Source of the DNA: Aminivibrio sp.
Lineage (GTDB): Bacteria > Synergistota > Synergistia > Synergistales > Aminobacteriaceae
Assembly (NCBI RefSeq): GCF_016756745.1
Contig: NZ_JAESIH010000021.1
Coordinates: 1 to 36,924, forward strand
Length of the DNA stretch: 36,924 nt
Direction: 5' to 3'
The position numbers and the translations under genes are program-made. This document shows positions 7,974-29,588 of this stretch, piece after piece. The first letter of the stretch is position 1. Each line of letters starts with the position of its first letter. The notes below the pieces were generated by a model. That model made no database searches. It had not been told where the DNA came from and worked only from the letters and a program-made list of their open reading frames with translations.

Positions 7974-8047
7974 TTGAATACCTCCTGAGATAAATTCCGT
8001 CTTCCGACGGTAATTCGATCTTACAGGAGTTCACCCTGACCGGCTCC

Positions 8048-9073: not shown

Positions 9074-9082
9074 GTAATTAGC

Positions 9083-11439: not shown

Positions 11440-11675
11440 AATAGATGGTATTTTTTATTCTATGGCCTGAATTCTTGTAAATGACTCTCGGTACCCAATA
11501 CAAGCAAAGGCGTTGCGTTTTTGTCGCTAAAACTAAACATCTTTTGATTAAGAGTGATTTCAACACACAATGATTCTGATACTCTAAAAGAAATTTAAAT
11601 TGTTTTTCTAAAAAATAATCTTGAAATGCTATTCTGTTCCTGGCTGTATTAATTTTGAAGAGAGGAGAGAAGCTA

Positions 11676-12719
11676 ATGGTTGAGGGTCATATCAGAGGAC
11701 TTTCACAATATTATTCCAATGGTCTGGAACGTATGGAAATTTGGATTGACAAAAAACATGCCTCTTCTCTACCGTGCCAAAATAATCAAAGAATCCCTAT
11801 AACGCTGATGATTGGAGAAAAAAACTTTGTTACAGGTTTAAGGAGTACTCCAGACAATGATTATGTATGGATTTGTCCCGATTTAAAAGATACACTTGGA
11901 AGAAAATCCTGTAGTCTAGCACAAGCGCTTTTGAGTAATGACTTTCAGAAAAATCAAAAGGTTAAATTGGTTTTTGACGGGAATATAGCAAGAATAGAAC
12001 CGATTTCTGAAATCGAAGTTCCTGATAAAAGCAGAAAAATAGCCGACCATTGTAAAATAGTGCTTGATTTGGCAAATGCAAAATTAAGTGAAGAGTTTTT
12101 TTATAACAGTCTCGCCCTATGTGTTATTGATGCTGTTTTTTCTCTTGGTATAAGCTATACAGCGACGCGTAATGTTGTGAAAAACTTTTGTTCCAAATTA
12201 AAGATCAAGATGTTTAGGCACCATGGAAGCAAATACCCTAAAATCGAATCTCAGTTTTCTATGGAGGCGCTGCTTTCCTTATACCAGAATCATTCTTTTG
12301 AAGAACTGGCAGACATAATCTTCAAAAACCACAATAGAACATCACCCCGAAACGGCATTCTAAAATCGGAAGCGGTGTTTCGCTTTGCCAGTGTCCTTCA
12401 TACTTTTGGGGTAAACTATTTCCAAGACATACCCCTTGTGATTGAAAGCTCAAATTTCGAATCCTCAATCAAGAAAATACCCGGTCAAAGCAGTGGTCTA
12501 TCAACCAAATACTTTTACATGCTTGCAGGTGGAGAGGACTTCATTAAGCCAGATAGAATGATAATCCGATTTGTTGAGTCTGTGATTCAAGAAAAAGTAG
12601 ACTCAGATAAAACATCTTCTTTGATTTTGGATGCCCTTACGATTTTAAAAAAAGAGTTTCCTGCTCTGACCCCAAGAATGCTCGACCATGAAATATGGAA
12701 GTACCAACAAAATTTATAA
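11676..12719 (+). CDS. Helix-hairpin-helix protein with putative B3-like N-terminal domain, function unknown
   Basis: The start ATG at 11676 follows a GAGGAGAG ribosome site; a longer TTG reading is less likely. The 347-residue product has two parts. Residues about 1-110 (GLSQYYSNGLERMEIWIDKKHASSL…, GLRSTPDNDYVWICPDL) are beta-rich and remind me of the B3/EcoRII-N-like DNA-recognition fold. Residues about 120-347 look like an HhH-GPD-type helical bundle, with KKIPGQSSGLSTKYFYMLAGG and then FIKPDRMIIRFV placed like the hairpin and catalytic aspartate of DNA glycosylases (D293). The catalytic lysine of endonuclease III-type enzymes is not evident. Base composition is very AT-rich compared with the BREX genes. 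It converges on the UvrD-like helicase gene at 12944. The upstream 11444-11675 interval holds only AT-rich sequence. Function is not established. Confidence 0.6.
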   Translation: MVEGHIRGLSQYYSNGLERMEIWIDKKHASSLPCQNNQRIPITLMIGEKNFVTGLRSTPDNDYVWICPDLKDTLGRKSCSLAQALLSNDFQKNQKVKLVFDGNIARIEPISEIEVPDKSRKIADHCKIVLDLANAKLSEEFFYNSLALCVIDAVFSLGISYTATRNVVKNFCSKLKIKMFRHHGSKYPKIESQFSMEALLSLYQNHSFEELADIIFKNHNRTSPRNGILKSEAVFRFASVLHTFGVNYFQDIPLVIESSNFESSIKKIPGQSSGLSTKYFYMLAGGEDFIKPDRMIIRFVESVIQEKVDSDKTSSLILDALTILKKEFPALTPRMLDHEIWKYQQNL

Positions 12720-12943
12720 ATATATTGTAATATTTCAATTAGTATAGTAACGCTACCAACTTGTAAACACAGGTTTCGAAAACAATGAAAATAAGAGATA
12801 TTTCTCCCGCTTGATTCGGACTCTCTAAGTAGAAACTGATGGAGTTCTATATAGCTATCTGCCTTTTTTTGATTATTAAGTTCCCGTAGAGCCACTTGTC
12901 TCCATTTGTAGATTCACGTTGTCAAAAAATCCTTAATTTTGCT

Positions 12944-15841
12944 CTATTCTTTTATCTTTTTAAAAGCGATTCTTTCATTGGTCGACGATAGAGCTTCAAT
13001 ACTTACACCTTTTACGGCCCAAGGGGAATTGCAGAGTTTCTCGAAATCAAAGTCGGCTTCAGGGACTGTTCTTTCCCAGCTTTTTCGGCCATTGTTGAAC
13101 TTATAATGGAGCTCTTCAAGATACTGTTTTACAGGGAAAGCATTAAATACTCTAATCTCCACTATTTTTGCGCTTTCCCTTGGGAGAACGGGTGGAAATT
13201 CATCCCAGTACAATGTTTCAAGCCATTGATTCATTGAGATATTCTTCAAAAAAACGGTCTTATTTCTTTCGCTGTCACACAATAACACGAGTTCATTTTT
13301 AGCTCTCGTCAGTGCGACATAGAAAAGGCGTCTCTCTTCTTCGTGAATCTTGTCGATACTGTCGAAAATTCTTTGGAATACCCAGTTTGGATGAATCAAA
13401 GGATATCGCCCAGGCACAGCATCAACAATGATTACTGCTTCTTTTTCAAGGCCTTTGAAATTATGAACCGTAGATATTTTGATTTTTTCCTTTTGCTCCT
13501 CGTCCATAAAGGATCTCAAATGATTAAGAAAAAGATTCAATGGACTTTGGTTTTTTTTAGAGTTCTCCTTTGAACAAAAGAAACCTCTCACATTGTTTTC
13601 CCTAGAGAGCAATACAACTTCTTTTTTTTCCTTTAAGAAAGAATCAACAAGCCTCAGGACTGAGGGGATAAATTTTTTTTCTTTGTGAAGATTTGATTCA
13701 ATTGTTGTTGGATGAAAATCACTCAAATATGCAACTCTCACTCGGCCAGGCTCAGTAGTCGAGGCCCTTGCAGGAGGCTTCTTTTCTTGCATTAAGGTAT
13801 TCCCAAGCTGGACTATTTTCTCCGCTGATCGATAATTTGTGCTGATATCAAGTTTTTTAGGGCATGAAAAGAATTCTTCAAAGTTTTCATAGAATTTTAG
13901 ATCGGATCCTGCAAATCCATTAATTGCCTGCCAGTCATCCCCGACACAAAAAAAGCTCGCAGACTCATTGAAATTCCTCATTTCGTTTAATAACGCATAA
14001 AATGGTTCAGAAAAATCCTGAAACTCATCGACTAAAACAAAACGCAAATTTTTAAGGTCACCTGTTTCCCTGCCACCCTTTCTTGAAAAACAGCTTTCAC
14101 CTTTTTTCAAAAGTTCAATGGCTTCCCACATCAAACCATCAAAATCCTGTTTGTTCCTATTTCCAAGTTCTTCAAGGTAATTTGAAAAAGTAATTTTCCC
14201 AATTTCAAGGAAGACCCGTTCTGCTCCTGAGATTGTTTCATGCTGACTTATTTTTATTTCCAAATCTTCGGGACTAAAATTTAATTTACGGCAACGCTGT
14301 ACGAATGATGTCATGGCTTTTGTAAAAGAATCTAAGGCCCTTACACTGATTTTTTGCCAAATCTCTTCATCATTCAATGCCTTTACCTTAATGCCTTTTT
14401 CTTTCATTCGTTCCAGAACTTTACGTGAGAACTCTTCACACCCGTCCGGAATAATATCGGATGAAGAAAAATCAAAAACAGACCATCCTCTTTTTTCTAG
14501 TGATTGTATTTCTATTTTACGGTTTGCATTTTCTTGCTCCAAAAGTTCACCGAAACCGTCATCCCCAGCTAGGTCAAAAAAATAGATAATCGCTTTTGCT
14601 TTTCCCTGGTAAATTGAAAAATATTTTTTTTCCGAAGTTTCCCGATTCCCGTATATTTTCCTTCCATACTTGTACTCAATGTCATTCTTGAACAAAGTAT
14701 TTGCAATGTTTTTTTCCCCTAAGGATTCAACAAATTCACCTGCCAGCGTTTCTCGCGGCAAAGAACTTCTGTGGGGAATCAGCTCAGGAACTGGGAGATG
14801 AAAACCGCCTTTAACGATCTGCCCCCAATCGTCTTGAAAGTGGCTCAGCATTACTTCTTTTATCATGTTGAGAAAACGCTGTTCTCTCATCTGATCTCGT
14901 ATTATCTCTTGAACTAAATTGCTAAGTTGGAGCCACCCTTTTTTTTCATCATCGTATAGTATTTCCTCTTCCGGGTGAACTAAGGCATGTGCAAGCGCAT
15001 GAAAGGTCATGACGTACGGTATGTCCTTCCCAAGAATTGAGGCTAATCTCTTTTCCATTTCCTTTGCCGCAGATTTATTAAAAGCCAGAAGAAGCAATTG
15101 ATGGGGTGATATTCCACAGTGCTTTTGCAAAAAAACGGCACGGGAGGTCAGGGTGGTTGTTTTTCCTGATCCAGCCCGGGCTACAACAAGTATATTTCCG
15201 TTAACAGCACCTACTGCAGCAGCCTGTTGTTCATCAAGCTGTCTGTTATTAAGAAGATCCTTTAGATTATCCTTTGCCCACTCCTGTACAAAATGAGCCT
15301 TTGTTTCCTGGAACTCTTGGTCAGAAAAAATTCCCCTCCAAGAACTCGATTCAAAGAAATCATCTGCTGATAGGAAATCATTTTTTAATACTGGTTGAAT
15401 GCTTTTCTTAAAGGCTTCTTTATGTTTTGCCTTTTCTTCTTTATGTTTTGCCTTTTCTTCTTTATGTTTTACCTTTTCTTCTTCTTGCTTTTGTTTTTTT
15501 ATTTTTTCTCTTTGGACCTGCTGTTTCTTGTTTATATCTAGAATTTTTCCAGGGATATCTACCCAAACCCACGGATTATTCTTAAGCTCCTTATAGACTG
15601 CGTTTATTATTTCTTGTCCTTCTTTAACCTCCTCCATTGACAATGGACACAATTCTTCTTGGTTTTTCAGGTATTTATTAATTTCTTCAGGCTTTATTTC
15701 TCTTCCACATTCAATCGCAACACGCACATAATCAAAAATAATTCTAATGCAGGGCAAGTTACGGGTTATACCATTCCAATGCCAGCATGTTATTAACTGC
15801 TTTAAAAGAATCATCAATTTCTCTTCATTCAAAGCGTTCAC
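12944..15841 (-). CDS. UvrD/Rep-family SF1 helicase with degenerate nuclease-like insert
   Basis: The 965-residue protein has the superfamily 1A helicase motifs: Walker A ARAGSGKTTT (residues 221-230), LLAFNKSAAKEM (Ia), VDEFQDFSEP (II), GDDWQAINGFAGS (III), TNYRSAEKI (IV), STVHNFKGLEKEAVIIV (V) and RLFYVALTRAKNELVL (VI). It would unwind DNA with ATP. Before domain 2A, residues about 366-463 (SLGEKNIANTLFKNDIEYKYGRK…) match the place where related helicases carry a PD-(D/E)XK-like nuclease. The expected R-P-D-F and E-Y-F-G-L elements read EKKYFSI and YFFDLAG, so catalysis is probably lost. Residues 105-145 are a lysine/glutamate coiled coil with three 7-residue repeats. The start is a GTG at 15841; internal starts are possible. 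Codon use is AT-rich like its convergent neighbour. Confidence 0.85.
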   Translation of the reverse strand: MNALNEEKLMILLKQLITCWHWNGITRNLPCIRIIFDYVRVAIECGREIKPEEINKYLKNQEELCPLSMEEVKEGQEIINAVYKELKNNPWVWVDIPGKILDINKKQQVQREKIKKQKQEEEKVKHKEEKAKHKEEKAKHKEAFKKSIQPVLKNDFLSADDFFESSSWRGIFSDQEFQETKAHFVQEWAKDNLKDLLNNRQLDEQQAAAVGAVNGNILVVARAGSGKTTTLTSRAVFLQKHCGISPHQLLLLAFNKSAAKEMEKRLASILGKDIPYVMTFHALAHALVHPEEEILYDDEKKGWLQLSNLVQEIIRDQMREQRFLNMIKEVMLSHFQDDWGQIVKGGFHLPVPELIPHRSSLPRETLAGEFVESLGEKNIANTLFKNDIEYKYGRKIYGNRETSEKKYFSIYQGKAKAIIYFFDLAGDDGFGELLEQENANRKIEIQSLEKRGWSVFDFSSSDIIPDGCEEFSRKVLERMKEKGIKVKALNDEEIWQKISVRALDSFTKAMTSFVQRCRKLNFSPEDLEIKISQHETISGAERVFLEIGKITFSNYLEELGNRNKQDFDGLMWEAIELLKKGESCFSRKGGRETGDLKNLRFVLVDEFQDFSEPFYALLNEMRNFNESASFFCVGDDWQAINGFAGSDLKFYENFEEFFSCPKKLDISTNYRSAEKIVQLGNTLMQEKKPPARASTTEPGRVRVAYLSDFHPTTIESNLHKEKKFIPSVLRLVDSFLKEKKEVVLLSRENNVRGFFCSKENSKKNQSPLNLFLNHLRSFMDEEQKEKIKISTVHNFKGLEKEAVIIVDAVPGRYPLIHPNWVFQRIFDSIDKIHEEERRLFYVALTRAKNELVLLCDSERNKTVFLKNISMNQWLETLYWDEFPPVLPRESAKIVEIRVFNAFPVKQYLEELHYKFNNGRKSWERTVPEADFDFEKLCNSPWAVKGVSIEALSSTNERIAFKKIKE
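15416..15478. repeat. Three 21-bp tandem repeats within the helicase gene
   Basis: The 21-base unit beginning CTTCTTTATGTTTTGCC repeats three times with one substitution in the third copy. On the coding strand it encodes three copies of the heptad K-H-K-E-E-K-A/V. The unit length is a multiple of three, so gain or loss of copies keeps the frame. Confidence 0.85.
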
Positions 15842-15972
15842 CTCGAATTACGGGGCTCTTTTCGATATTTTCTCCATTAGCATCTTCCGTAAACATAATT
15901 TACAAATCGATATCACCAAATGAAAGATCCCATCATTTTTGTATTACTTGATGAGTAATGCCATATCGAGGA

Positions 15973-18009
15973 TTAATCTTTCAATTCAAAAGAAGCCGCA
16001 AGCACCTCCGCTATCGTTGTTACCGGAGTCAGCGTGATTGCTTCAAGCACGTAGGAAGGTAAGGCCTCCGCTTCCTTCATGTTGTCGGCGGGCAGAAGAA
16101 CTTCTTTCACCCCGGCGTCGTATGCGGCCCGTATTTTCTGCTGAATGCCACCGACGGGAAGAACCTTGCCCATGATCGTAATCTCACCCGTCATGGCAAG
16201 ATCGTTCCTCACGGGCGTTTTCGTCAATGCCGAGACAATACCGGCGACGAGGGTGACGCCTGCGGACGGTCCTTCCTTGGGTACCCCCATAAAGGTGGCC
16301 AAAACCGCTACATCGAATCCGTTTCTCCACTCGGCACTAATTCCGAGATCCTCGTGTTTCGCCCTTATGTATTGGGCCGCGGCCTCGATGCTCTCCCGCA
16401 TGACCCGTTGTATCGATCCGAGTGGTACAATGCGCCCGGAGCCTTTCGTCGCCTGCATTTCAAAATGCAGGATGCAGCCGTGGTCTTCATCGACGGCCAG
16501 GCCTATGACCTCGCCGACCGTAGGAGCTGCGGGAAGCACTACCCGTTGGACGCGCTTGCTGTCCGGAAGTTCCGCTACGACATGTGTTCCTGAAGGGTGC
16601 AGCAACGCTCCAAGGGAGATGCGGTCGTACTCGCCCGGCGCAATCAGATGAAGCTGGTCGCGTACTCTCTGGCGCAGTTCGCAGGCCACGGTGAGGATGT
16701 CGCACAGCTCCCCGTCGGAGACCCTGCCGTCGGGATGAAGCAGCTTCAGCAGTCCCGACGCTGTTTTCATGACGGCCCGTTGGTCTCGCCCGGATACGCC
16801 GTTCGTCCGTTTCGCGTGATCCACCACTTCGAAGCGCGGCCGAAGCGCCCCCAGCAGATCGACGCGCCGAAGCTCATGCATGATTTCGCAAAAATAATCC
16901 GTTATAAAGCCGTAATCCTTCGAGTAACTGCCCGGTGTTAATTTTGGAATTTCCCAGCCGGGCAGGTATCCGTGGATTCGGTCCAGAAAGGCGATCACCT
17001 GCAGAAAATCGGGCAAGGGCTCGAAAAGATGATAATATTTCTCGTGAGGAAGTCCCCCCTGAACATCGAGATTGCCCACGAACACCAGGCTGGCGAAGGC
17101 GAGTATCTCCTTCTTCCCTCTGCTGAACTTGGCGTCCTGCATATAGCCCTGCATGATGCTCACGAACGACCTCGGATCGGTAAAATCGGTGTTCGCGATC
17201 TCGTCGAAGACGACGGCGTCCCTCACTCCCACCTCGCCGATCTTCCCGCTGTTCAGGTTGATGAAAAGCTGGGCCGGAGTCGCCTTGCCGCCCGACAGCA
17301 CGTGCGCGTAATACGATATGTTGCGGTAGAGATAGGTCTTCCCGGTCTCCCGGGGCGCAAGTTCGACCATGTTGACGTTGGTCTCCACCAGGGGAATGCA
17401 CCGGCACAGGTAGAGCAGCTTCTGCCGGCGTGTCATCCCGTGCGGATCAAGGCCGCATGAGTTCACCAGCACATCGAGCCACTCGTCGGTGGAGAACTCG
17501 CGGCGGCGCTCTATGTATTCGTCAAGGTTGATCACGCTGACCTGAAAAGGCGTGAAGGCCGTGATCTTGAAAGGCCTGATCTTTTTATTATGGATTTCGT
17601 TCTCGTCGTATGTCAGGTCGATGGTTCCCCACATGCCGCCGGAAAGCAGCATCGGGTACTGGCGAACAATGTTCTCGGGAATGTTCACGAAGCTCTCGTT
17701 GATGGCGGAGATCGTTCCCCAGTACTTGTCCTCCGTTTCAACCAGCCGCGCCTCCAGGCTTGCGATCACCGAATGGCTGCGGTTCTCGCGGATATAATGC
17801 CGGATCTTCTCCGCTTCCGCGCCGTAGACGAACGTCTCCTTCAGTCTTCTGACGACCTTTTCCATGTCCTCGTGGAAGGTCTCCTCGGAGCAGTAGTTGT
17901 CGATCAGGTACTCCAGCACGTACCGGGGAAACTCGTCGACGCCAGTATTGATAGTATGCGCCTTGTTGACGACCTTCCCTCTGAAAACCTCTTTGAGTTT
18001 CTGATTCAT
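15973..18009 (-). CDS. brxL: BREX protein BrxL (Lon-like protease/ATPase)
   Basis: The 678-residue protein has the BrxL layout: an N-terminal domain, an AAA+ module with Walker [10 protein letters not shown] (K224) and Walker B AVVFDE (265-270), and a C-terminal Lon-type protease domain with the catalytic Ser582 in EGPSAGVTL and Lys625 in [10 protein letters not shown]. Known BrxL proteins form DNA-binding hexamer/dodecamer rings and are needed for phage exclusion in type 1 and type 4 BREX. It is the last gene of the six-gene operon, 76 bases after pglZ. Length and active-site residues are normal. The 15842-15972 interval after it has no clear terminator. Confidence 0.95.
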
Positions 18010-18085
18010 CTGCGATCCCCCGCTCTCGACATAGGAATTCCCTGCCCGGGCCGTACCGGTCGGGCAGCAACGCCAACCTCCCGGA

Positions 18086-20992
18086 TCATCGCATGCTCCT
18101 TGGTGTCAGGCCCAGAATTTTCCCGAGATGCGGAGGCACGCGGCGGACGATCTTTTCGGAATTCAAGCGCATGGAAAACCGGATCTCCTTCCTCTTTTTC
18201 ACGGTGCGTTGCCCCTCGCGGTACGAAACGCCGATCCTCAGAATGCGCTCCATCATACCCGCTGCACGCTCTTTGTCCGAAGCGTCCTCTGCATCCGGGA
18301 CAAACCGGCAGACGACCTCCACTCCCGACGCCGAAACGTAATAGACAAGCGAAGGCAGAGCGGGTGTCGAATCCTTGTGCTGGTACGCCCCCTGCGTTTC
18401 CAGCCGGAGTTCCTTGTGTTTGTGAGAGTCCGCAAGCCGAACCTGCATTGTGAACTCGGCGGTCTCTCCTTCGATAAGATCGGATGGCCCCGAAATCGCG
18501 CCGAGGAGAAGGACTCCCTCCTCCGGTGTTTTCACCCTCATGGCGAGCATGGGCACAAACATTTCCTGGATGGAGATTCCTCCGTGGGAGTATGCGTCCG
18601 GGTTGAATTTCGCAGCGGGACGGGAAAAGGCATAGCCGGTTTTCGGGAAGAGGATGGATTCGTAGAGCTTTTGACGCTTCTGCTTCGTTCCCTTGTCGAA
18701 CACTTCTTCCGAATCGGGCAGCCGAAGATCCGCGACAGGAAACTCAAAAACGCTCTTGCGTACCTTCGCCGGAGCATTTAGTCCGCCGAGCTCCCTTCCC
18801 ATCCATGCGTTGAGGTAATGGCAGTCGTCCGGCTCGTTCAACCAGGAAGATTCAAGGAAGATGCGCTCGCGGCCGACGGCGCCGAATCCGTGATCCGCCA
18901 CGACGAAAACCTTTGTATCTGGAGGAAGGTTCCGAATGACGGCTGTCACTTCGTTTTCGATGATGTTCTTGATATGCTGCTGATAGATGAACGCCAGCGG
19001 ACGGGAGGGAACGCTGCGGCCGTCCGGCAAAGTCTTTACGGAAATCTTGTGAAGTTCCTTGTCGCACAGCTCGAAGATGAAGAACTCGACGTTGCCCGCG
19101 CGATAGCGGACGGTCTCCCCTGTCCCCGAACCTTCGGGGTTCACAACCTCGACGCTCCCGGCGTACCCGAAATCCCTTTTCAGCGCCTCCTTCAGAAGAT
19201 CGTTCTCGGCGCGGCGCGTGTCGAAGGAATCGGGAAAAGTGCCGGCGAAAATGGCTTTTCTGCTGATGTGCGTCTCCGAAGGAAGCAGCGACGATGCCGG
19301 ATAGTCCGCGATGATCTCCATCCGATCCTCGAAAAAAGGCCTGACCAGTTCATCCCAAATGTCGTAGCGCATTCCGTCGAAGACGAACACGACGGCCTTC
19401 TCCTTTTGCGGATCCCAGTGGGGCTTCAGGCAGCGCATCAGAAAGCGGCTTGTGAGACGGACCTCGGAGGAATCCGAGGCAACCCACGACGGATACTGGT
19501 CGGCCGCCATCTCCTGGTACCGGAAGTTCACTGCGGAAAGCGCTTTGTGTATTTCTTCCTTCAATATGCCGGTACGTTTGCGGATACGTTCCAGCGCGGC
19601 AGTAAAGCCGTCCGGCAAATCGCAGGCCGAACGAGGGAGAAAATCCGCGCTTTCAAGCAGACGTTCCAGTGCGGAGAGGTAGTATTCCAGCCGGTTGACC
19701 CGGCGATCGTTCCACAGCCCCCGGAACCACCCGAAAGACAATCCGGAGGTCTGCAGGACGCCCAGGTTTTTTAATGCGGCATTCAGGTCGCTCCGGATCC
19801 GGAGTATTGATTGGAGCAGGCCGTACGCCTCCTTGAGATTCTTCCAGGCATTCGACGGACGCTGTTCGATGAACAGATGTTTCCCGTCGTCTGTTTCCGG
19901 AAAGAGCGTCCGGCGGAGTTTTTCATGGGGCGGCGAGAGAGTGAAATCGGCAAGAAGGCTGTCCAGGGCGGCGAAAAGAGCCAGAGAGCGGAGGAGGACG
20001 GAGTACCGCTCATTGTCGATAACCTCCGCAAATGTTCCGCCGGTAAAGAGTTTCAGTTGCTCCAGAAGAAAGTCGAGCGCCTCACCGGAAAGCGACGCTT
20101 CGGCTTCCAGAAGATCCCGGTCGGCTCTGAGTGGATCGATCGAAACAAGCTCCAGCGCCGCCTCGGCTATCAGCGAAGCGTCCATCTCGCAGAACGGTTT
20201 GAGGTCGGGATCGATATTGGCGAGCACGAGTTTCCAGTGCTGTACGTGCTGGGAGAGAATCGCCGAGAGGTAGAATGCCCTCACCACAGGTTCCGGCGGA
20301 GAGTCCGCAAACCAGCGGAAGGGGGCGGGGGCGGTGCGCAATTCGTCGCGGATGGCACGGGCTACCTCCGGAGCGAGCGAATCAAGCTCTTCGAGCGCCG
20401 TTGAGCCGGCGAGAGCGATGCGCCAGTAGATACGCGCCTCGGGGCGTTTGAACGCCGCCTCGGGGACGCCAAGCGCCGAATAGGCGACGATGCTTCTGAA
20501 ATCATGGTCCGTGAAGCGGGTCGGATGCGCTGTTCGCAGTCCTTGGTGCGCTTTGAGCACATCGCCGAGCGAGCCCGCGATCAGCCGCGCGAAACGCGGA
20601 GTGTCCGCCTCCTGCGGCCAGTTGCGATCTCCTGTTTTTTCGATCAGAAACTGCCGGAGGCTGATGTCGATTCTCGCCGCCTCCGGCGTTTCCGCAAGAA
20701 GATCGGGATAGAAGGGGGGCGGCGCTTTCGTCGGCGAAGGCTGCGTCTTCCTTCTGGCGGGAGCGCGGTCGATGAGCAGCAGCTTGCCGTTTTCTTCCGG
20801 CGATCGCGCCTTTTCCAGCAGCTCTCTGAAGACGAGGTTCGTCGAGGCGATGATGGCCGTGAACCCGTTATCGTTGGCAAACCGGTGAACAGCCCCTTCG
20901 GTCTCGGGGAGAAGCCGAAGGTGATCCTGGACAAGCACGATCCGCTCGTCCTTCAAGACTTCCAGCTTCTCGATGATCCAGCGCGAAAGCAT
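18086..20992 (-). CDS. pglZ: BREX protein PglZ (alkaline-phosphatase-superfamily)
   Basis: The 968-residue protein carries the PglZ phosphatase-like core: a metal-binding [14 protein letters not shown] (residues 536-549), the nucleophile-region motif [17 protein letters not shown] (residues 568-584) and a second metal site VVADHGFG (697-704). The N-terminal 500 residues are a long helical region without motifs I can name. The C-terminal 150 residues are beta-rich. PglZ is the one protein shared by all BREX types; it partners with the methyltransferase. The start ATG is 12 bases after the upstream ATPase stop, so the genes are in one operon. Composition is GC-rich like its operon neighbours. 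Confidence 0.95.
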
Positions 20993-21004
20993 CGGCTCCC
21001 CTCC

Positions 21005-24000
21005 CTATTCCAACTGAAGCATCGGCAGAGAGTCGTCGTCCCCCTCGCCGCCGCTGAACTGGGACTCCAGAAAACGGCGGAATTCCTCCGCAACGCTCCG
21101 GATCTGGTCTTTCTCTATCGTGCCCGCCTTCGGTTTGAAATCGGCGATTTTGACCCGCTTCACAACGATCCGTTTCAGGTATCTGTTGATCATCTCCGCG
21201 ATTTCCGGCGTTTTCCGGACGGCTTTGAGAAAGTACGCCCGCAGTTCGTCCGCTGTCGCGCACGCAAGCAGCCCCGCGATAACAGGCTCCGCTTTTCCCT
21301 GTTCCAGGCGCTGCCGCACGGTGGGGTTCAAGAACACCTCCATCTTTCGACGCCACGCATCCTCAAGCGTCTTTTCGGCTTTTCGGGCTGCTTCCGCCGC
21401 CGTCTCCGCAATCGCCGCCGCATTCGCGAACGAAAGACCGCAATCATGCTGCGGTTTGCTGCGCAGCCGCTCCACCACGGAGATTCGGGAAGAGGACCGG
21501 CACTCGAACACATCGTCCAGGAGCTTTTGAAGGTGCGCGGCCAGCTTCTCGGTGCTTGCGGGGCACAGCGCGGAAATACCGTCGAGAACGTGAAGGATCT
21601 CGATGTCGGCGCCCCCGAGGATGTCTTGAATCTTCCTCCGGCTGCCTTCGACGGCGTTCACGGCACTTTCGTGCATCGGCACGTAGACGGAGGCGTACTC
21701 GCGGATCATAGCGGCTATCGTTCCCTTTTCCCCTGCTGGCGCCTGAGGATGCCCGACGAGTTCAGTCTTCAGCCTGACGTCCGAATCGATGAACTCCTTC
21801 AAATTGCCGAGCTTCACCCGGACGGCCTCGACGGCCTTCCGTGTCTCCGACAGCTCCTGCTGCTCCCCGATCTGTGCCGTGCAGTACTCGCGGGCCGCCC
21901 GCAGCTCGTTCTCGTATTCGAGGAATGCGCGAATGTCGTGGTAGTTCTTCAGCCGGTTCGCCAGGTCGTCCACCTCGGCGGACGAAGCCGCGTTCGTATC
22001 GAAGGCCTTGTACCCCATGGCCTCCTTCAGCGCGTACAGGACAAGCTGAATGTCGTCGCCGCCGTCGACCGGGGCGCCGAAGAGCGAAACCGCCTGCTCC
22101 AGCTCCGTCGCGTACGGGTTTGCCGAATCCAGATCGTCGAACAGGCTCCGCGCACGGACATCTGTCCGTGCGGCGATTTCTTTCTCCGAGTTGAAGAGCG
22201 AGCGCAGCGCGGCGCGGTACTTCGAAACGGCGGCGTCGTCCCGGGTGTCCGGAATATCGGCGCCGAGCAGCTTTTCCGCGTACGGCCTCAGCACGTCCCA
22301 GTTCTCGGGCCGCGCCACCTTCCGGATCTCCGTCAGCGAATCGAGCACCTTCGCGGAAAATTCCACACCGGCGATGTTCGAGTAGTCCAGCGTTTCGAAG
22401 GGAAGCGACGCTTTGCTCCCCACGCCGACGCGCACGCTGCCGTCGCGGACGAGGCAGAGCAGAAAAATCTGCACCATCCGGCGTGTGAGTCCGTAGTCCT
22501 TCGGGCCTCCGATGCCCATGAAGTTCTTGTACAGCGTCTCCATCTTCATGGACTGGCTTTCGTCCGCCAGCTTGTCGTCGATGAACGCCCGCATGTCCCG
22601 GACATATCTGTTGTCCGAAACGTCCAGTTCCTTCTCCGCGCTCTTTTTCATGATGTTCAACGCGAAGCCGAAGTTCTGCGCGGCGCTGATGTGCTGATTG
22701 GGCTTCGCCCCCTTGGGGATGCTCCCTGTTCTGACGATGCCGTTGACGACCTTGACGCCTTCTTCTTTCCGGAAGACATAGGGCGGTTCGAACTTTATGT
22801 CCCGCGACTCGTAGGCGGCCGTGAGCGCGCGGTCGAGCAGCGGCGTCAGAATCGCCGCCAGATCCCCGGCCACGCGGAATTCCATCCGTGTGTTGTTCAG
22901 CGCGTCCACGCGACCCCGTGCGTAGCTGTTGTCCACGATCTTCACGATCCTGGCGAGGTCGGACTGAAGCGTGTTGGACACCCAGTTGATTACGGCGATG
23001 GCGTCTTCGGTTTCCTTCCCCTGCCAGTCGGCGACGAGTTTGCGGTATGCGGCGAAGTCGATGAGGCGGTCGCGCTCCTCCTGCGTCTGTTCCGAGGGAG
23101 TCCACAGAAGGACGCGGGGATCCTTGCGGCGCTCGATCAGCTTGAGAACCGACGCCTCGGGAACGTGCCGGATACCTACATAAACAGCGAAATCAAGATC
23201 GGACTGGTCGGTTTCGACCGGCGGAAGCGGCTGGCTTTCCGCTGCCATTCTCCCGAAGTCGCGCATACCCACACGGCCGGCGATCTGACGCCCCTGCCAG
23301 ACCGCCTCCAGTTCCCGGTCTTGCGAATGGAAGGCGCCCTTGTCGTCAGGGTGCGCGGCAATTCCGCGGAAAATCGACCGGACGCCGCCGGAGAGGTCGA
23401 TGGTCATCTGGCGCGTGCGCACCGGCCACTCGTCCAGCGCCAGAAGATGCTCCCACGCCTCCTTCTGCATCGCCTCGTTGGACTCCGCCGCGTCCCGCGC
23501 CTTCTGGAACTCGTCCCTCGGATCGATGCCCGTGAAGACCGGATCAAAGCGGTAGCGGGGGCGCTTCTCTTCGTCGAACGTCTGGACGATCTGGCGCAGC
23601 TCTATCTTCAGATTTTCGGCGATGTTCTCGTAGTGCTGGTTGTTCTCGTCCGGATTCGCATCGGCCTCGCGCTCGATGAGGACGGAGTTGGCTATATCCT
23701 CCGGCGTGATTCCCTGCTGGCGCGTCCGCGCGATATGGTAGAGGAAGAGCGTCTGAACGACTTTGAGCCCCTTGTCGCGGTGCACCTTCAGGTGTCCCTT
23801 GGTAAGGCCGTCGATCTGGCGCTTGCAGGATTCGTACGCCCGGTAGTCCGTCTCGCGCTTCGTCTTGATGGCGACGAGCCCGGAGTGCACGCCGCTCGGG
23901 TCTTCCTCGTACCGTACCGCTTCGTCGAACAGCTCCCACAGCCGGATCAGCTCGCGCCCTTTGCTCCTGATCTGCTGTTTCAGCGTCTGGTGCATGAAGT

Positions 24001-25333
24001 GGATCGCCGAGCGCGTCGTGGTCAGCTCGTACGTGATGGCACGCAACACCTCCACGGCGGGTTTGTGAAAAGGGAAGAAGTGCCGGAACTCCGCCTCGCC
24101 GATGCTGTTCGGCCAGGTGAATCCCCGCTTGTAATGGAGATAGTAGTTGCCGATGGCCGCAGGATCCTTGATCTTCCGCACCCGCGCGAGGACGATGTCG
24201 TAGTAGTCCTTGTCCTCCTCCAGCAGCTTGACCAGCTTCAGGCGGTCGTCGGCGATGATGTTCTTGACCCCCATCTTGCTTTCGATGGCCTGCTGGGCGG
24301 CGCAGACGGTCCATACCGGCAGGTTCTGAATCTTCGCCAGCCTGTTCGAGAGGACGACGAGGGTTTTCTCGTCGTCGGCACGCTGCTCCTCGTCCCGGTT
24401 CTTCATGAAGAGGGAGACCTCGTCCAGCACCAGCAGTATGCCGCTGTAGCCTTCGGCGAGGATCGTCTCCGCCATGTGCCCCAGAATCTCCTCGGTCTCC
24501 GCGGCGATCTGCGGCTGGACCTTCAGATACTCGGTATAGAAACGCCAGAGCTTGTTGCCGCAGCTCCGCTTGTACTCGGGCGTCCTGTTCTGCTGGATGG
24601 TGGCGAGAAAGTCGTCGATCTCCTCGAACTCGTCCTCGTCGAAGAACTTCGGGTCGCGCAGGAACCTGGCCAGATCCTTCCGGTAGCGCTCCATATCCTC
24701 CGTGATGAAGCGGTCGGCGAGCAGCTCCACCGGATACAGGGAGATGTTCTTCCCCAGCTCGGCAAGCAGCTGCTCCTTGACGGCGTCGAGGATGTACTCG
24801 GAGAGCCTTCGCCCCTTGTCGGCCAGCCCCACCGTCCCGCTGCCGGCGCCGACGAGCGTCTTGACGACCACGAAGACGCCCTTGCTCCCCTTGCCGCTCT
24901 TGGCCTCGATCCCCTCCTCCCAGAAGCGGTAGAGCGATTCCCGTTTGCCTTTTCCGGAGGCCTCCTCTTTTCTTTTGACGATCTCCCAGGCTTCCTTGCG
25001 TCCGAGCGCCAGCGAGGCAAGGCAGCATAGCAGGTGCGACTTGCCGGAGCCGAACTCCGCCTGGATCCAGTACCCCTGGCCTATCGGGTTTTCCTTCCGC
25101 TCCCGCTTCCAGGGCGCGGCCATGCCGCGCAGGATGTCGGTGAGGAAGGGGCGCACAGGATCGATCTGAAACTCCTCGACGGTCTGCAGCTCCGGTATCC
25201 GCGCTCTTCGGCTTTCCGCCGAGTTCGAGTCGGCCCAGACGTGTTTTTCCAGCGAGTAGACGGAGATGATTCTGTCCGGGACCGTGCAGATCTCCGCAAG
25301 CGGCTGTCTTTGAGTGAAAAGATCTCCTTGCAT
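21005..25333 (-). CDS. brxC: BREX ATPase, BrxC/PglY-like (DUF6079-type)
   Basis: At 1442 residues this is the largest gene in the window. The N-terminus has a P-loop in YWIQAEFGSGKSHLL (G95-S99, K98) and a Walker B GILLVLDEVSLFM (D304, E305). Much of the remainder is helical, with a DPRVLLWTPSEQTQEE nucleotide-fold-like segment further on. The gene order, size and P-loop fit the BrxC/PglY group of BREX ATPases (the DUF6079-type members in my judgement). Its role in BREX is essential but poorly defined: it is thought to work with PglX and PglZ in discriminating phage DNA. It begins 3 bases after the methyltransferase stop. A separate helicase (BrxHI/BrxHII) is not encoded in the operon. Confidence 0.88.
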   Translation of the reverse strand: MQGDLFTQRQPLAEICTVPDRIISVYSLEKHVWADSNSAESRRARIPELQTVEEFQIDPVRPFLTDILRGMAAPWKRERKENPIGQGYWIQAEFGSGKSHLLCCLASLALGRKEAWEIVKRKEEASGKGKRESLYRFWEEGIEAKSGKGSKGVFVVVKTLVGAGSGTVGLADKGRRLSEYILDAVKEQLLAELGKNISLYPVELLADRFITEDMERYRKDLARFLRDPKFFDEDEFEEIDDFLATIQQNRTPEYKRSCGNKLWRFYTEYLKVQPQIAAETEEILGHMAETILAEGYSGILLVLDEVSLFMKNRDEEQRADDEKTLVVLSNRLAKIQNLPVWTVCAAQQAIESKMGVKNIIADDRLKLVKLLEEDKDYYDIVLARVRKIKDPAAIGNYYLHYKRGFTWPNSIGEAEFRHFFPFHKPAVEVLRAITYELTTTRSAIHFMHQTLKQQIRSKGRELIRLWELFDEAVRYEEDPSGVHSGLVAIKTKRETDYRAYESCKRQIDGLTKGHLKVHRDKGLKVVQTLFLYHIARTRQQGITPEDIANSVLIEREADANPDENNQHYENIAENLKIELRQIVQTFDEEKRPRYRFDPVFTGIDPRDEFQKARDAAESNEAMQKEAWEHLLALDEWPVRTRQMTIDLSGGVRSIFRGIAAHPDDKGAFHSQDRELEAVWQGRQIAGRVGMRDFGRMAAESQPLPPVETDQSDLDFAVYVGIRHVPEASVLKLIERRKDPRVLLWTPSEQTQEERDRLIDFAAYRKLVADWQGKETEDAIAVINWVSNTLQSDLARIVKIVDNSYARGRVDALNNTRMEFRVAGDLAAILTPLLDRALTAAYESRDIKFEPPYVFRKEEGVKVVNGIVRTGSIPKGAKPNQHISAAQNFGFALNIMKKSAEKELDVSDNRYVRDMRAFIDDKLADESQSMKMETLYKNFMGIGGPKDYGLTRRMVQIFLLCLVRDGSVRVGVGSKASLPFETLDYSNIAGVEFSAKVLDSLTEIRKVARPENWDVLRPYAEKLLGADIPDTRDDAAVSKYRAALRSLFNSEKEIAARTDVRARSLFDDLDSANPYATELEQAVSLFGAPVDGGDDIQLVLYALKEAMGYKAFDTNAASSAEVDDLANRLKNYHDIRAFLEYENELRAAREYCTAQIGEQQELSETRKAVEAVRVKLGNLKEFIDSDVRLKTELVGHPQAPAGEKGTIAAMIREYASVYVPMHESAVNAVEGSRRKIQDILGGADIEILHVLDGISALCPASTEKLAAHLQKLLDDVFECRSSSRISVVERLRSKPQHDCGLSFANAAAIAETAAEAARKAEKTLEDAWRRKMEVFLNPTVRQRLEQGKAEPVIAGLLACATADELRAYFLKAVRKTPEIAEMINRYLKRIVVKRVKIADFKPKAGTIEKDQIRSVAEEFRRFLESQFSGGEGDDDSLPMLQLE

Positions 25334-25336
25334 GGC

Positions 25337-27928
25337 TTACTCCTCCGTTTTCCTTCCGCGGCGCTTCGGCTCGCTTGCCTCGCGCGCCAGCATCCTCGCG
25401 CACACCTGATAGTCCTCCTCGACGTTGACCATGGTCTCCTCGGAGAGCGCGTCGGGGTTCAGCCCGCCCTTCTCGAACAGCAGCTTCCCCTGCTCGTAGA
25501 GCCCGGCCCGCTTGCAGTGGCGTATCCACTCCGCGAGCGTCGCGTCGTTCGGGCGCTCCTGTTCAGGGATGACGGCCCCCTGAGCGAGCTGGGCGAGATA
25601 GCGCTTCACCCGCCTTCCCAGCCCTCTGGCGCGTGCGTCGCGCTTGGCCCGTTCCTCCTCTTCGGAGGCCGGAAGGCGCCACGTTCCCTTTTCGGTCGTG
25701 TAGAAGTAGTCAGGCAGGAGATCGGTCAATTGGCGGCGAGGCTTGTCCGTCACCGCGTAGATGTAGAACTCGAAGAGATTGCTGTAGTGCACGCCCTCGT
25801 CGCCGGGGTTTTTCCCGAGAAAGTCCTTGAGGAACGCGCCGATCTTTTCGGCCGCCGCTTCCTCGCGTGCGTTTTCCGCGTCGTCGTGAAGAACCAGTTC
25901 GGTCTCCTTCAGGTACCAGCGGCCGATCTCGTGCGTGCCGAAGAGGTTCGGTTCCTCCGGCTCGAAGAGGGTTTTCATCACGGGGGTCTTCACCTCTTCC
26001 GCCGCGCTCCGGAGCAGTTCGTCGAAGTCGTGCGCCTCCATCTGCCCCTTGCGAACCATCCGGCTCACGACCTCGTCGTAGATCCGGTCCTTGGTGCTGC
26101 CGGGGTGCGCGCCGAGATAGTCGCGGACGATCCGGCGGACCTTCTCGCCGAAGGTCGTCTTGTCCTCGTCCCCGGTGAGGAGGATGGCCTCCGCTGCTTC
26201 GCCGGGCTTGGGCTTGCGGAAGTTGATGACGAGGTCGCGTTTGTTTACTTTATCAGCGTTAAGCTGATTGTACGACTTCTGCAAGGTGTCGATGTAGAGC
26301 GCGGAGTCTGTTTTTTCGACAACGAACCCTGCTTCCGCCATGATGTCCTGCACCAAAGTCCACGTCCCCTCCGATGTGTCGTGGTAGCACAGCGAAATGC
26401 ACCGTCCGGGTTTGAGCACGCGGTAGCACTCTCCCATTGCCTGACGCATCATTCCGGCCCAGTCTTCCTCGGTCTTGCCCCGCACTTCGTTGACGATGAT
26501 CTCCTCGTCGTGCCAGTGCGTATCGAAGCCGAGCCACGCCTCCCAGATGAAGTTGAGTTCGCCGTATTGGATTTTGTCGGCATAGGGGGGATCGGTGAAG
26601 ATGTAGTCAATTGAATTTGATACAATCCCCGACTGTTTTGATGCATCTTGTGTTGATACTATAATCTTAGTATAGCTGCTAGAGTCATTTCGAATTTTTT
26701 GATAACCTCTGGCAAGGTTGGTTATTTTACCTGCATACCATGGAAGAACGGCATATTCCCGTCCAGTCTGTGGTATGTAATATGTGCCTTTAAAAAGATT
26801 GTTTGGGAACCGGGGATCAGTTGAGTATCCCTGCATCTTGCTGAGGTTCACAAGAATGGCTTCAAAACCAAAAAACAATTCATCGGAATGCTTGATTTTA
26901 CGACCAATAGTATTCCGTATCGCCGCCAGCGCCCACAGATTGCGCTTGGTGAAGAGTTCATCCACAGTTCGAAAATTGCTGGTTCCCGCACGCCATTTAA
27001 CGCCCCAACACTCCTGCTCTTTGGGCGCGTGCATCATCCGGTCTTTCGGATACCAGTACGGAATCTCACTCTCCTCGATCTCCCGGATCTTCCCGAGGTC
27101 GTACTTCTCGAAGTACTCCCGCTTCTTCTCGTCCGGGTCGTTATGCCGCCGCTCGCCCCGCTTCGGTGTGCAGCCGTTCTCGCAGAGGTAGCTCACCATC
27201 ACGGGGATCGCGCCGAACTTCTCCGTGCGCGTGCTGATCTCCTCCGTGATGCCCCGCTGAAAGCAGTGCGGGCAGGCGCTGATCTTCTTCGGTTTCCCCT
27301 TTGCGGTCTCCCCTTCGACCTCGACGCAGTCGAAGAGCGGAACTTTCTCGAAGCAGCGGGGGCAGCGGAAGACCTGGGAGTACACCGTGTACGCCGTCGT
27401 CGCCTTGCCGCCGCACCGGTCGCATCGCGTCTCGTACAGCCAGTCTATCTCCGGCTTGACCGTGCGCTCCAGCTCCTCGAAGGCGTGCTGCAGCTCGTCG
27501 GTGTCCACCGGCGTGCAGTAGTTCTTGGTGATGAAGGTCGCCGCGGGGGAGCGGTCGATGGCGATGGCCTTCCGCTCCTCCATCAGCGCAGCGAGCGCCG
27601 TGCCGCCGGAGCCGCAGAAGGGGTCGAGCACCAGGTCGCCCGGTTTGGTGTAGTGGCGGATGTACTGACGGATGGCGTCGTGCGGCTTCTTCGACCAGTA
27701 GGTGTGCATGTTGTAGATGGCCGTGGCCTTGGTGGTCTCTATGGCCTTGTCGAAGGGCGGCGCGTCGTAGTCGTCCGTCTCGGGATCGTAGGGGTTTTCC
27801 TGCAGATGCTGCTCCACGAAGGCCCGCAGGTTCGGGTTCGGTTGATCTCCTGAGTAGTACCCCTCCGGCATTTCGGGGATTGTTTCCTTGAAGAGGCTGC
27901 CGGACTGCGCTTCTTTTTTCTTCGCCAT
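25337..27928 (-). CDS. BREX DNA methyltransferase (PglX-like, DUF1156-type) with zinc ribbons
   Basis: The 863-residue protein has the SAM-binding motif I LVLDPFCGSGGTALAAL (FCGSGGT at 104-110) and the catalytic motif IV YIFTDPPYADK (DPPY at 446-449), which marks an adenine-N6 or cytosine-N4 amino-methyltransferase. Two C-x2-C pairs (C169/C172 and C189/C192) and a further set (C219/C222, C249/C253) form probable zinc ribbons between the motifs. The layout, with a HTYWSKKPHDAIRQYI block before motif I, recalls the DUF1156-type PglXI methylases of type 3 BREX rather than the 1200-residue PglX of type 1. It would mark self DNA. The segment for residues about 309-443 (26600-27000) is strikingly AT-rich in a GC-rich gene. 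Confidence 0.85.
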   Translation of the reverse strand: MAKKKEAQSGSLFKETIPEMPEGYYSGDQPNPNLRAFVEQHLQENPYDPETDDYDAPPFDKAIETTKATAIYNMHTYWSKKPHDAIRQYIRHYTKPGDLVLDPFCGSGGTALAALMEERKAIAIDRSPAATFITKNYCTPVDTDELQHAFEELERTVKPEIDWLYETRCDRCGGKATTAYTVYSQVFRCPRCFEKVPLFDCVEVEGETAKGKPKKISACPHCFQRGITEEISTRTEKFGAIPVMVSYLCENGCTPKRGERRHNDPDEKKREYFEKYDLGKIREIEESEIPYWYPKDRMMHAPKEQECWGVKWRAGTSNFRTVDELFTKRNLWALAAIRNTIGRKIKHSDELFFGFEAILVNLSKMQGYSTDPRFPNNLFKGTYYIPQTGREYAVLPWYAGKITNLARGYQKIRNDSSSYTKIIVSTQDASKQSGIVSNSIDYIFTDPPYADKIQYGELNFIWEAWLGFDTHWHDEEIIVNEVRGKTEEDWAGMMRQAMGECYRVLKPGRCISLCYHDTSEGTWTLVQDIMAEAGFVVEKTDSALYIDTLQKSYNQLNADKVNKRDLVINFRKPKPGEAAEAILLTGDEDKTTFGEKVRRIVRDYLGAHPGSTKDRIYDEVVSRMVRKGQMEAHDFDELLRSAAEEVKTPVMKTLFEPEEPNLFGTHEIGRWYLKETELVLHDDAENAREEAAAEKIGAFLKDFLGKNPGDEGVHYSNLFEFYIYAVTDKPRRQLTDLLPDYFYTTEKGTWRLPASEEEERAKRDARARGLGRRVKRYLAQLAQGAVIPEQERPNDATLAEWIRHCKRAGLYEQGKLLFEKGGLNPDALSEETMVNVEEDYQVCARMLAREASEPKRRGRKTEE

Positions 27929-27930
27929 GG

Positions 27931-28455
27931 CTACTCTCTGACCTCCCAGAGGTGGTTGTCGGCTATCAGGTTCGTGGGCAGGGTGTAGTCTCCCCCGTTC
28001 GCTTCATGGAACATGACGACCCGTCCGCGCGACCTCCGGCCGGGGAGCAGCAGCAGAATCCGCTGCTCGTCCGCCGCCATGCTGCGCAGCAGGTTCAGTT
28101 CGATCTGGTAGGCGAAGAGCATCTCCAGATTGGAGAGGACCAGGATTCCTCCGCCGGCGAGGCGTTCGCGCAGAAACCGCTCGAACGCCCTTGCCACGTG
28201 GGCTGCCGTGGGTTCGGGGCGCTTCGCCTCGTTTTCGGCAAGCTCCCTGAACTCATCGTCCGGTATCGCGTCCAGGATGCCCCTGTTGACGTTGACGGGC
28301 CCGGGAAAAGGGATGCCGTCCGTGGTCCTGGCCTGTCGCAGTTTCGCCGCAAAAGCGCCGAGTGCGGCGTAGCCGCTCAGAACGCCGTACAGGTGCCTTC
28401 CTCCGGGGAGCGCGAGCTTTTGGCGGAGCGCTTCGATGATCTCGGTGCTCTTCAT
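27931..28455 (-). CDS. Small BREX component, BrxB/BrxF-like
   Basis: The 174-residue protein is placed between the brxA-like and methyltransferase genes, where brxB or brxF is expected. The C-terminal half has the layout of these families: a strand-turn GGGILVLSNLEMLFAYQIELNLLRSM (about residues 100-126) followed by a strand RILLLLPGRR. The N-terminal half reads HLYGVLSGYAALGAFAAKL (about 21-39) where BrxF proteins have their P-loop; no G-K-S/T is present, so nucleotide binding is unlikely through that motif. PGPVNVNRGILDAI aligns with the next conserved block. It overlaps the brxA-like stop by 5 bases and precedes the methyltransferase by 2. The choice between BrxB and BrxF is open. Confidence 0.6.
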   Translation of the reverse strand: MKSTEIIEALRQKLALPGGRHLYGVLSGYAALGAFAAKLRQARTTDGIPFPGPVNVNRGILDAIPDDEFRELAENEAKRPEPTAAHVARAFERFLRERLAGGGILVLSNLEMLFAYQIELNLLRSMAADEQRILLLLPGRRSRGRVVMFHEANGGDYTLPTNLIADNHLWEVRE

Positions 28456-29588
28456 GACGTTTTTCCTCCGATGATCCGTTCGACCGCTTCCGCGAGCGTG
28501 TACCTCGTCGTGAACTGGCGGACGGCGTCGATCTCCGAGACCTTGCTGATCAGTCCGCTGTTCCGCAGGCCGTACAGTGCGTGCGGAAGGCGTTCCGGGT
28601 TCCAGAGCATGGCGCGGATCAGGCGGTTCTCTTCGAGCTTGCGGATGTCGTACATGCCGGGTTCCGGAAACTCGCTGTGGAGTACGAATGCGAAGGACGC
28701 CGCCGGAATCTCCCGGTAGGAGAAGGCGAGCTTCGTCCGGTCGGCCTTGGCGACACCGCCCGCCGCAAGGGCGTCCACGATGGCCTTGGTGCAGTCCGTG
28801 ATGCTCTTGGACTCGGGAAACTGCTCCGTCAGGCGGTTCCGGATGTGCTCGCGGTGCAGGCGGCCCGTGCCAAGGTTGGGGATGAGCAGTTCCTCGACGA
28901 TCTCCGCCTGGAGCGGTTCCGCGAGGAGAAAACGGTAGAAGCAGACCTCCCGCAGCTCGCGGGTATCCGGGAAGGCCTTGGCGAACAGGCGCAGGGGAGC
29001 GTCCGCGTACCCTTCCGGGAACATTCTTCCCGTGATGTAGTTGGTATATCGCTGCCTTGTTTGTTCGGCACTGAAAGGAAGAGAGCTTCTGAGAAAAGAT
29101 CGTATCTCGTTCAGCGAATCGCTGTCAGGAAGGTCAGGCAGAATCTTGATAGTCTCCTTGAGCAATGATTTTCCGAATAAACCTGTGCGTGTTTTTCTTA
29201 TGGGCATGGGTGACGACGGCGTCGGAACTATCTCAGGAGAATCAGTATCGAACAGCGTCCCTTGAGCAGGTATTCTTGGTTTCTCCTTGGGCGTTTGTGT
29301 AGAAGTGCCATAATATTTACGGATCCAATCCACAAGCTTTATAAGGATAGCGCTATTGCCTTTAATGCCGTTAAATTGGCAGAGATCATCATATGGAGCT
29401 TCCAACAGAGAAGAGAGGCTGCCGTAGTGAGACAGCAGACGGGCCGCAAGTGGCTGAAGATCTACTCGGGGAATAGAATAAGTCAGTAGAAGTTCAAGCA
29501 GGGCTTCTTCAGAGCGGGAAGATTCTTCCCCTGAGGAAAAACGGTCTCGTAAACGTTCTCGATGATTAGGTTTGACTGTTTCTGACAT
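28452..29588 (-). CDS. RadC-type HhH domain fused to BrxA-like protein
   Basis: Residues about 8-93 (HRERLRDRF…EALLELLLTYSIPRVDLQPLA…FNGIKGNSAILI) match the N-terminal UPF0758/RadC helix-hairpin-helix domain. The RadC JAMM metalloprotease part is absent. After a Pro/Ser-rich linker (about 95-130), residues about 160-378 form a helical region (FSAEQTRQRYTNYITGRMFPEGY…FYRFLLAEP…IVEELLIPNLGTG) that I read as a BrxA-like (DUF1819) domain from sequence pattern and operon position. BrxA is a DNA-binding BREX component. It is the first gene of the operon, with the start ATG at 29588 and a weak GGGTTGGGA site. The first about 180 codons are notably richer in A+T than the remainder. Other possibility: a family of its own. 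Confidence 0.7.
   Translation of the reverse strand: MSETVKPNHRERLRDRFSSGEESSRSEEALLELLLTYSIPRVDLQPLAARLLSHYGSLSSLLEAPYDDLCQFNGIKGNSAILIKLVDWIRKYYGTSTQTPKEKPRIPAQGTLFDTDSPEIVPTPSSPMPIRKTRTGLFGKSLLKETIKILPDLPDSDSLNEIRSFLRSSLPFSAEQTRQRYTNYITGRMFPEGYADAPLRLFAKAFPDTRELREVCFYRFLLAEPLQAEIVEELLIPNLGTGRLHREHIRNRLTEQFPESKSITDCTKAIVDALAAGGVAKADRTKLAFSYREIPAASFAFVLHSEFPEPGMYDIRKLEENRLIRAMLWNPERLPHALYGLRNSGLISKVSEIDAVRQFTTRYTLAEAVERIIGGKTS

Follow-up and report, generated by a model that had tools for sequence, protein, structure and literature searches.

Bacteriophage exclusion (BREX) systems are among the commonest phage-defence families, and how they halt the replication of phage DNA is still open. 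Type 1 BREX has the gene order brxA-brxB-brxC-pglX-pglZ-brxL and type 3 the order brxF-brxC-pglXI-brxHII-pglZ-brxA. In type 1, PglZ is a metal-dependent nuclease that binds BrxB (PMC12205998), and BrxB assembles with BrxC and PglZ into a core complex that adjusts methylation relative to restriction (PMC13326643). BrxL was described as an AAA+ ring that loads onto DNA and requires its ATPase activity for restriction, as lacking an obviously conserved Lon protease motif, with a domain that seems structural, and as limited to types 1 and 4 (PMC10164562). In the main text of the fullest recent BREX survey, which covers 8475 taxa, BREX falls into four clades, alongside three BR systems and a capture system, unassigned hits were discarded, the Lon domain of BrxL was called inactive and BrxL was stated to be "entirely absent" from types 2 and 3 (PMC12839542). 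Here, contig NZ_JAESIH010000021.1 (C21) of Aminivibrio sp. was analysed, whose 36,924 nucleotides are the entire window, i.e. the whole stretch of DNA under study, in a genome of 2.94 Mb in total. It carries a six-gene operon that is likely a complete anti-phage system of the BREX kind, belonging to a distinct type that has not yet been labelled, and working by the mechanism proposed below.

Composition of the operon and identity of its genes

The six open reading frames are complete and located on the minus strand at 15973-29588, where a preliminary description of this DNA had placed a six-gene BREX operon. From 5′ to 3′ they encode BrxA with a RadC-type helix-hairpin-helix (HhH) domain, BrxB, a methyltransferase of the PglXI/BrxXI class, BrxC, PglZ and BrxL, and the intergenic gaps of −4, 2, 3, 12 and 76 bp correspond to an operon layout. 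Profile libraries (PADLOC, Pfam and NCBIfam) gave clear matches only for the methyltransferase (PADLOC PglXI, E-value 3.5e-112) and BrxL (PADLOC BrxL, 2.6e-165); the E-values for BrxC, PglZ and BrxA ranged from about 1e-3 to 1e-10 and BrxB gave almost nothing. Therefore, the homology of these four proteins was tested by structure models and profile-profile comparison. The PADLOC models for BrxA, BrxB, BrxC and PglZ give very low scores or none in this operon, and loci of this kind are therefore probably missed or mis-typed.

The BrxA-like DNA-binding protein (378 amino acids (aa), 28452..29588) carries a RadC/UPF0758 N-terminal HhH domain at aa 9-78 (29355..29564), recognised by profile (UPF0758_N, 3.4e-5) and by the structural match of the model N-terminus to the Hef HhH domain 1x2i. 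The AlphaFold model, built from 21 family sequences, has a predicted local distance difference test (pLDDT) value of 88, and among the best matches of residues 130-378 are BrxA 7zge (Z 14.0) and SspB 6juf (Z 13.2). The RadC-HhH/BrxA fusion noticed earlier is thus confirmed, and RadC-HhH is the right label for the N-terminus because the RadC MPN domain is missing. The HhH domain was found on BrxA of most relatives, and BrxA would therewith have gained a domain that binds DNA in other proteins. A BrxA homologue of Halorarius (2e-15) clears the Pfam BrxA cut-off. For the second protein (174 aa, 27931..28455; model pLDDT 89.3), initially called BrxB/BrxF-like, the top match in the Protein Data Bank with both programs was chain BrxB of 9zll, the BrxC-BrxB-PglZ complex from Acinetobacter (Z 10.9). 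A weak match to the NCBI BrxF hidden Markov model (HMM) reached 16.6 bits against a cut-off of 50.

The predicted adenine methyltransferase (863 aa, 25337..27928) contains the S-adenosylmethionine motif DPFCGSG (aa 102-108, 27605..27625) and the catalytic motif DPPY (aa 446-449, 26582..26593), between which an insert with two Cys4 motifs (27149..27427) is likely the target-recognition region; both motifs and the two Cys4 motifs are kept in most or all family members. It had been described as a DUF1156-like zinc-ribbon methyltransferase; the enzyme is of the PglXI class, Pfam gives N6_N4_Mtase (1.3e-22) and no DUF1156, and NCBIfam gives a weak DUF1156_antiphage match (2.6e-9). The BrxC-like AAA+ ATPase (1442 aa, 21005..25333) matches DUF6079 (1.2e-10) and BREX_BrxC (5.4e-8), and its profile-profile probability to type 3 and type 1 BrxC is 99.4-99.7%. 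The Walker A region AEFGSGKS (aa 92-99, 25037..25060) is near-invariant, and Walker A and B are kept in most or all family members. PglZ (968 aa, 18086..20992), by homology a phosphodiesterase/nuclease, matches PglZ in Pfam (1e-7) and BREX_PglZ_3 (3.2e-10), with a profile-profile probability above 99% to types 1 and 3; the catalytic core D539, T574, D700-H701 and H803 (18584..19378) is conserved in 18/18 family members. BrxL (678 aa, 15973..18009) combines a DNA-binding N-terminus, an MCM-like AAA+ ATPase with the Walker A motif PRETGKT (aa 219-225, 17335..17355) and a C-terminal Lon domain (profiles BrxL_N, BrxL_ATPase and Lon_C), and it matches the solved BrxL 8emc at 1.4e-102. The ATPase, PglZ and BrxL were thereby identified as originally proposed. 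An open frame of 1508 aa on the plus strand (20504-25030), antisense to BrxC and PglZ, is probably a by-product of high-GC coding on the opposite strand.

In the same profile libraries, none of the six proteins matched BrxH, BrxP, PglW or BrxD, in agreement with the reported lack of a BrxH helicase. This includes the type 2 markers PglW, BrxD and BrxHI, the type 4 marker BrxP (PAPS reductase/DUF4007), a DUF499 ATPase or SF2 helicase (the ATPase present matches DUF6079), and the HerA/FtsK translocase of the BREX-related capture system. BrxHII was found neither in the operon nor in the core gene sets of its relatives.

Distribution and phylogeny of the module

A scan of 84,980 species genomes with a BrxC alignment yielded 33 loci, and the module was recognised in about 30 loci (numbered with the prefix L) from about 13 phyla including archaea. 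The whole module or a portion of it was present on contigs from Pseudomonadota, Synergistota, Chloroflexota (including Levilinea saccharolytica and Candidatus Viridilinea), Omnitrophota, Spirochaetota, Armatimonadota, Caldifarciminota (WOR-3), Bacillota (Pelotomaculum), Myxococcota, Verrucomicrobiota, Bacteroidota and a Patescibacteria-labelled bin, as well as from the archaea Methanothrix, Methanolinea and a euryarchaeote. As the same set recurs in many phyla, the gene set is not a product of chance. Many of these contigs end inside the module, and gene content refers to the part on the contig. All six genes are present in 13 loci: the window, L015, L016, L018, L019, L021, L023, L030, L035, L036 (with the count completed by L126), L039, L042 and the IMG/VR contig L154. 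The other loci with the full set, at least twelve, come from Pseudomonadota, Chloroflexota, Omnitrophota, Spirochaetota, Bacillota, Caldifarciminota, Myxococcota, archaea and a viral-collection contig. The window gene order also occurs in L015, L016, L021, L030, L035 and L154, and with inserted genes in L039; some loci have two methyltransferases. The position of the methylase before the ATPase, emphasised earlier, is correct here and not diagnostic, because the methyltransferase follows PglZ in several relatives (L018, L019 and L023).

The module is rare, being carried by 2/188 genomes of its own phylum, with G024 (Synergistaceae) as the relative from the same family, and by the seed genome only in an archaeal phylum with 197 genomes. 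No relative was retrieved with PglZ in a single-protein scan of viral contigs or in a search of plasmids; the BrxC alignment found two viral-collection contigs. L027-L029, also found via BrxC, were not counted as the system, as their BrxC-like genes are accompanied by neither PglZ nor BrxL on the part of each contig that was covered; in L029 a methyltransferase follows. In two of them, both from Desulfobacteria (L027 9983-15016 and L028 3365-8690), the BrxC-like ATPase, about 1100-1200 aa long, stands without further BREX genes and is followed by a DbpA-type DEAD-box helicase. Moreover, an extra gene sharing the C-terminal tail of the methyltransferase is located between methyltransferase and BrxC in L021 (7043-8167, with DUF7662 repeats), L154 (4157-4990) and L155 (4051-4983), and just before BrxC in L020 (7366-8172). 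In L036 (Levilinea) an HEC-01-like AAA ATPase and a DUF4276 gene (18285-20044) are inserted between methyltransferase and PglZ.

Maximum-likelihood trees were calculated with reference sequences of types 1/6 and 3 taken from Synergistota, Chloroflexota and plasmids. A search for type 2 references via NF033446 yielded none among 297 Pseudomonadota genomes, and DUF4007 matches in Chloroflexota were not used as type 4 references. The family forms one side of a branch with support in the Shimodaira-Hasegawa-like approximate likelihood ratio test (SH-aLRT) of 99 for BrxC, 98 for the methyltransferase and 100 for BrxL; for PglZ the value is 99 without the divergent Myxococcota row L042 and 69 with it. 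Types 3 and 1/6 are each closed and separate from the family: BrxC and PglZ lie outside the type 1 clade, and BrxC, PglZ and the methyltransferase outside the type 3 clade. Since the four trees come from quick searches and have long branches, it is unsure how Halorarius and L042/L043 relate to the family. Pairwise distances correlate with those of BrxC at r 0.97 for PglZ, 0.93 for BrxL and 0.89 for the methyltransferase; over the six proteins, r is 0.78-0.97 for all pairs without the methyltransferase and 0.40-0.89 for pairs with it. The proteins diverge in step and the module therefore travels as one. For the window proteins, an Anaerolineaceae locus (BrxC 79%, BrxL 91%) is nearer than the Synergistaceae locus of the same family (72%, 84%), which shows that whole modules move between phyla. 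What has been observed for the module comprises its gene content and layout, the homology and folds of its parts, the conservation of their catalytic residues, the clade structure, the co-divergence and the horizontal spread.

Two explanations would deny the module a type of its own. It might be a divergent type 3 system in which BrxL has replaced BrxHII, given that PglXI is the best match of the methyltransferase, that BrxC and PglZ fall on the type 3 side of a midpoint root, and that BrxHII occurs in 77% only of type 3 systems according to the main text of PMC12839542. However, type 3 BrxC, PglZ and methyltransferase each form a closed clade without this family, the profile-profile distance from the family to type 3 is about that between type 3 and type 1, PglZ of the family carries about 120 additional C-terminal residues, and the same text states that BrxL is entirely absent from type 3; this explanation is therefore regarded as unlikely. 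The mixed composition, together with a canonical type 3 BREX in the same genome, could also suggest a recent type 1/type 3 chimera arisen in this genome. That idea is refuted, practically without residual doubt, by the recurrence of the same six-gene set in many phyla with correlated divergence and by the trees, in which type 3 genes are not the closest relatives. Consequently, the earlier impression of type 3-like methylation mixed with a type 1/4 BrxL holds for the pairing of a PglXI-class methyltransferase with BrxL and fails as a mosaic, the methyltransferase not being nested in type 3. This pairing shows that, over deep time, modification modules and effector modules can be exchanged. The suspicion of a new BREX subtype gained support, as none of the described types fits and the trees of BrxC, PglZ, the methyltransferase and BrxL each show a monophyletic clade separate from types 1/6 and 3.

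Lon protease site of BrxL and proposed mechanism

The Lon domain of the window BrxL (aa 495-673, 15991..16527; Lon_C 5.8e-50 / 5.8e-51) contains the catalytic serine S582 (GPSAG, 16264..16266) and the catalytic lysine K625 (GGIQQK, 16135..16137), and scores 174 bits with Lon_C compared with 264 for the genome's own Lon. The Ser-Lys dyad, the most conspicuous feature of the locus and absent from the preliminary description, was present in 16/16 checkable family BrxL proteins (15 aligned and L154), with the serine in GPSAG (once GSSAG) and the lysine in a motif of the GG(I/V)xxK type. Both residues together were found in none of 18 type 1/6 BrxL references, and the dyad is missing from the solved Acinetobacter BrxL (8emc). 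In a tree of Lon domains, family BrxL groups with housekeeping LonA/LonB against the C-termini of type 1 BrxL (support 100/100). All family members retain the dyad even where their BrxL is as little as 44% identical to that of the window, a pattern suggestive of selection for activity, and BrxL of this clade can probably cut protein.

In the mechanism proposed here by analogy with characterised relatives, BrxA with its HhH domain and winged helices, BrxB, BrxC, PglZ and the PglXI-class methyltransferase would form one complex. This complex would mark the host genome with methylated adenine at a site recognised by the zinc-ribbon insert; incoming DNA without the mark would switch it into restriction mode, in which PglZ may nick the DNA and BrxL may load as a ring, MCM-like and driven by ATP, and so block the replication of phage DNA. 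Phage defence, methylation, the choice between self and non-self, nicking and BrxL loading are likely on these grounds. Having an intact dyad, the BrxL ring probably also degrades proteins on captured DNA, such as the replisome, phage proteins or BREX regulators. In the preferred reading, the ring on unmarked DNA would remove or degrade replication proteins while PglZ nicks the DNA. More tentatively, and with somewhat less than even confidence, the module may be a BREX type of its own that dates back as far as types 1 and 3. Its BrxL would then be an AAA+ ring loaded on DNA, with a functional Lon protease, and the first proteolytic BREX effector, stripping or degrading proteins on unmarked DNA under guidance by a BrxA HhH domain that reads branched or replicating DNA.

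The main alternative to this effector reading is an internal regulatory role of the protease: the system would be BREX as proposed, with the Lon domain serving in-house, in processing or turnover of BREX proteins, or being structural. It is a possibility of real but lesser weight, favoured by the type 1 domain, which has no protease motif and seems structural (PMC10164562), and opposed by the conservation of the dyad throughout the family. A more distant alternative is a module for maintenance or stabilisation of a mobile element instead of phage defence. A tyrosine integrase just upstream and a DarT1-NADAR pair and insertion sequence (IS) elements nearby would fit it; however, the composition is that of BREX with complete modification and restriction sets, and this alternative appears very improbable. 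Several points weigh against a separate type with a proteolytic BrxL: most relatives are metagenome-assembled genomes, the sequence signal of BrxB is weak and its assignment rests on the fold, types 2 and 4 were compared through HMM libraries and not placed in the trees, and in the literature BrxL is not a protease, an intact dyad alone being no proof of activity. A protease-competent BrxL in a separate type contradicts two published statements, the limitation of BrxL to types 1 and 4 and the inactivity of its Lon domain, and its role is testable by a single Ser-to-Ala or Lys-to-Ala change.

Genomic surroundings and comparison with known systems

The surroundings of the operon give the picture of a mobile defence island. 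The tyrosine integrase is located directly upstream in a region with a GC content of 45%, compared with 59% in the operon, and on the other side, further out, the DarT1-NADAR pair, an IS21 ATPase gene and a transposase are found. The pair is an ADP-ribosylation toxin-antitoxin system at 8048-9781. Directly downstream of BrxL, a gene with 38% GC (12944-15841) encodes a UvrD/helicase IV-like protein of 965 aa with a long N-terminal stretch rich in lysine and glutamate. It was rejected as a seventh component of the system and as a substitute for BrxH, because among the relatives there is one distant UvrD-like neighbour only (L034, 28%). The canonical type 3 BREX of the same genome (L070, contig C25, about 68000-87900) consists of a PglXI methyltransferase, BrxHII, PglZ and BrxA, with a large unassigned open reading frame of 1274 aa between BrxHII and PglZ.

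No report of a new or seventh BREX type was found in the literature searched. In the main text of PMC12839542 no composition matches the six-gene module, neither RadC nor the helix-hairpin-helix is mentioned, and the effectors do not include a Lon effector. The Type-3 BR system of that survey (DUF499 ATPase, methyltransferase, helicase, PglZ, iSTAND) shares a zinc-finger methyltransferase (in a subset with two fingers), PglZ and iSTAND with the operon, whereas here the BrxC is DUF6079-like, a helicase is absent, and BrxL and BrxA are present. The closest relative outside the clade across five proteins is a plasmid locus of Halorarius halobius (NZ_CP101162, L008), which has methyltransferase, BrxA, BrxB, BrxC and PglZ at 21-29% identity and differs by lacking BrxL and the HhH domain of BrxA; it is a possible BrxL-less sister of the clade. 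Its five genes (7580-17402, in the order MTase-BrxA-BrxB-BrxC-PglZ, with neither BrxL nor BrxH) are followed by a metallophosphoesterase gene.

Type 4 BREX (brxP-brxC-pglZ-brxL) has BrxC, PglZ and BrxL in common with the operon, which in contrast lacks BrxP/PAPS reductase and has a methyltransferase and a Lon domain on BrxL. With type 3 the module shares a PglXI-class methyltransferase with a Cys-rich insert, a small BrxB/BrxF protein and a three-winged-helix BrxA, and the large insert with a Cys4 finger of type 3 PglXI/BrxXI is present. It differs from type 3 by BrxL in place of BrxHII, by the C-terminal extension of PglZ (about 120 residues beyond the part aligned to type 3 PglZ), by gene order and by its own clades. 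The same six functional roles as in type 1 are represented, with BrxL as the last gene and a Lon-fold domain at its C-terminus, but the methyltransferase is of the PglXI class instead of a large PglX, BrxC, PglZ and BrxL form separate clades, and BrxA carries HhH. Types 1/5/6 feature BrxL with a degenerate Lon domain or an HKD nuclease, whereas the Ser-Lys dyad is intact here. Features of the BREX superfamily that are present include a PglZ with conserved metal-binding residues, a BrxC AAA+ ATPase, and BrxA-like and BrxB-like subunits.

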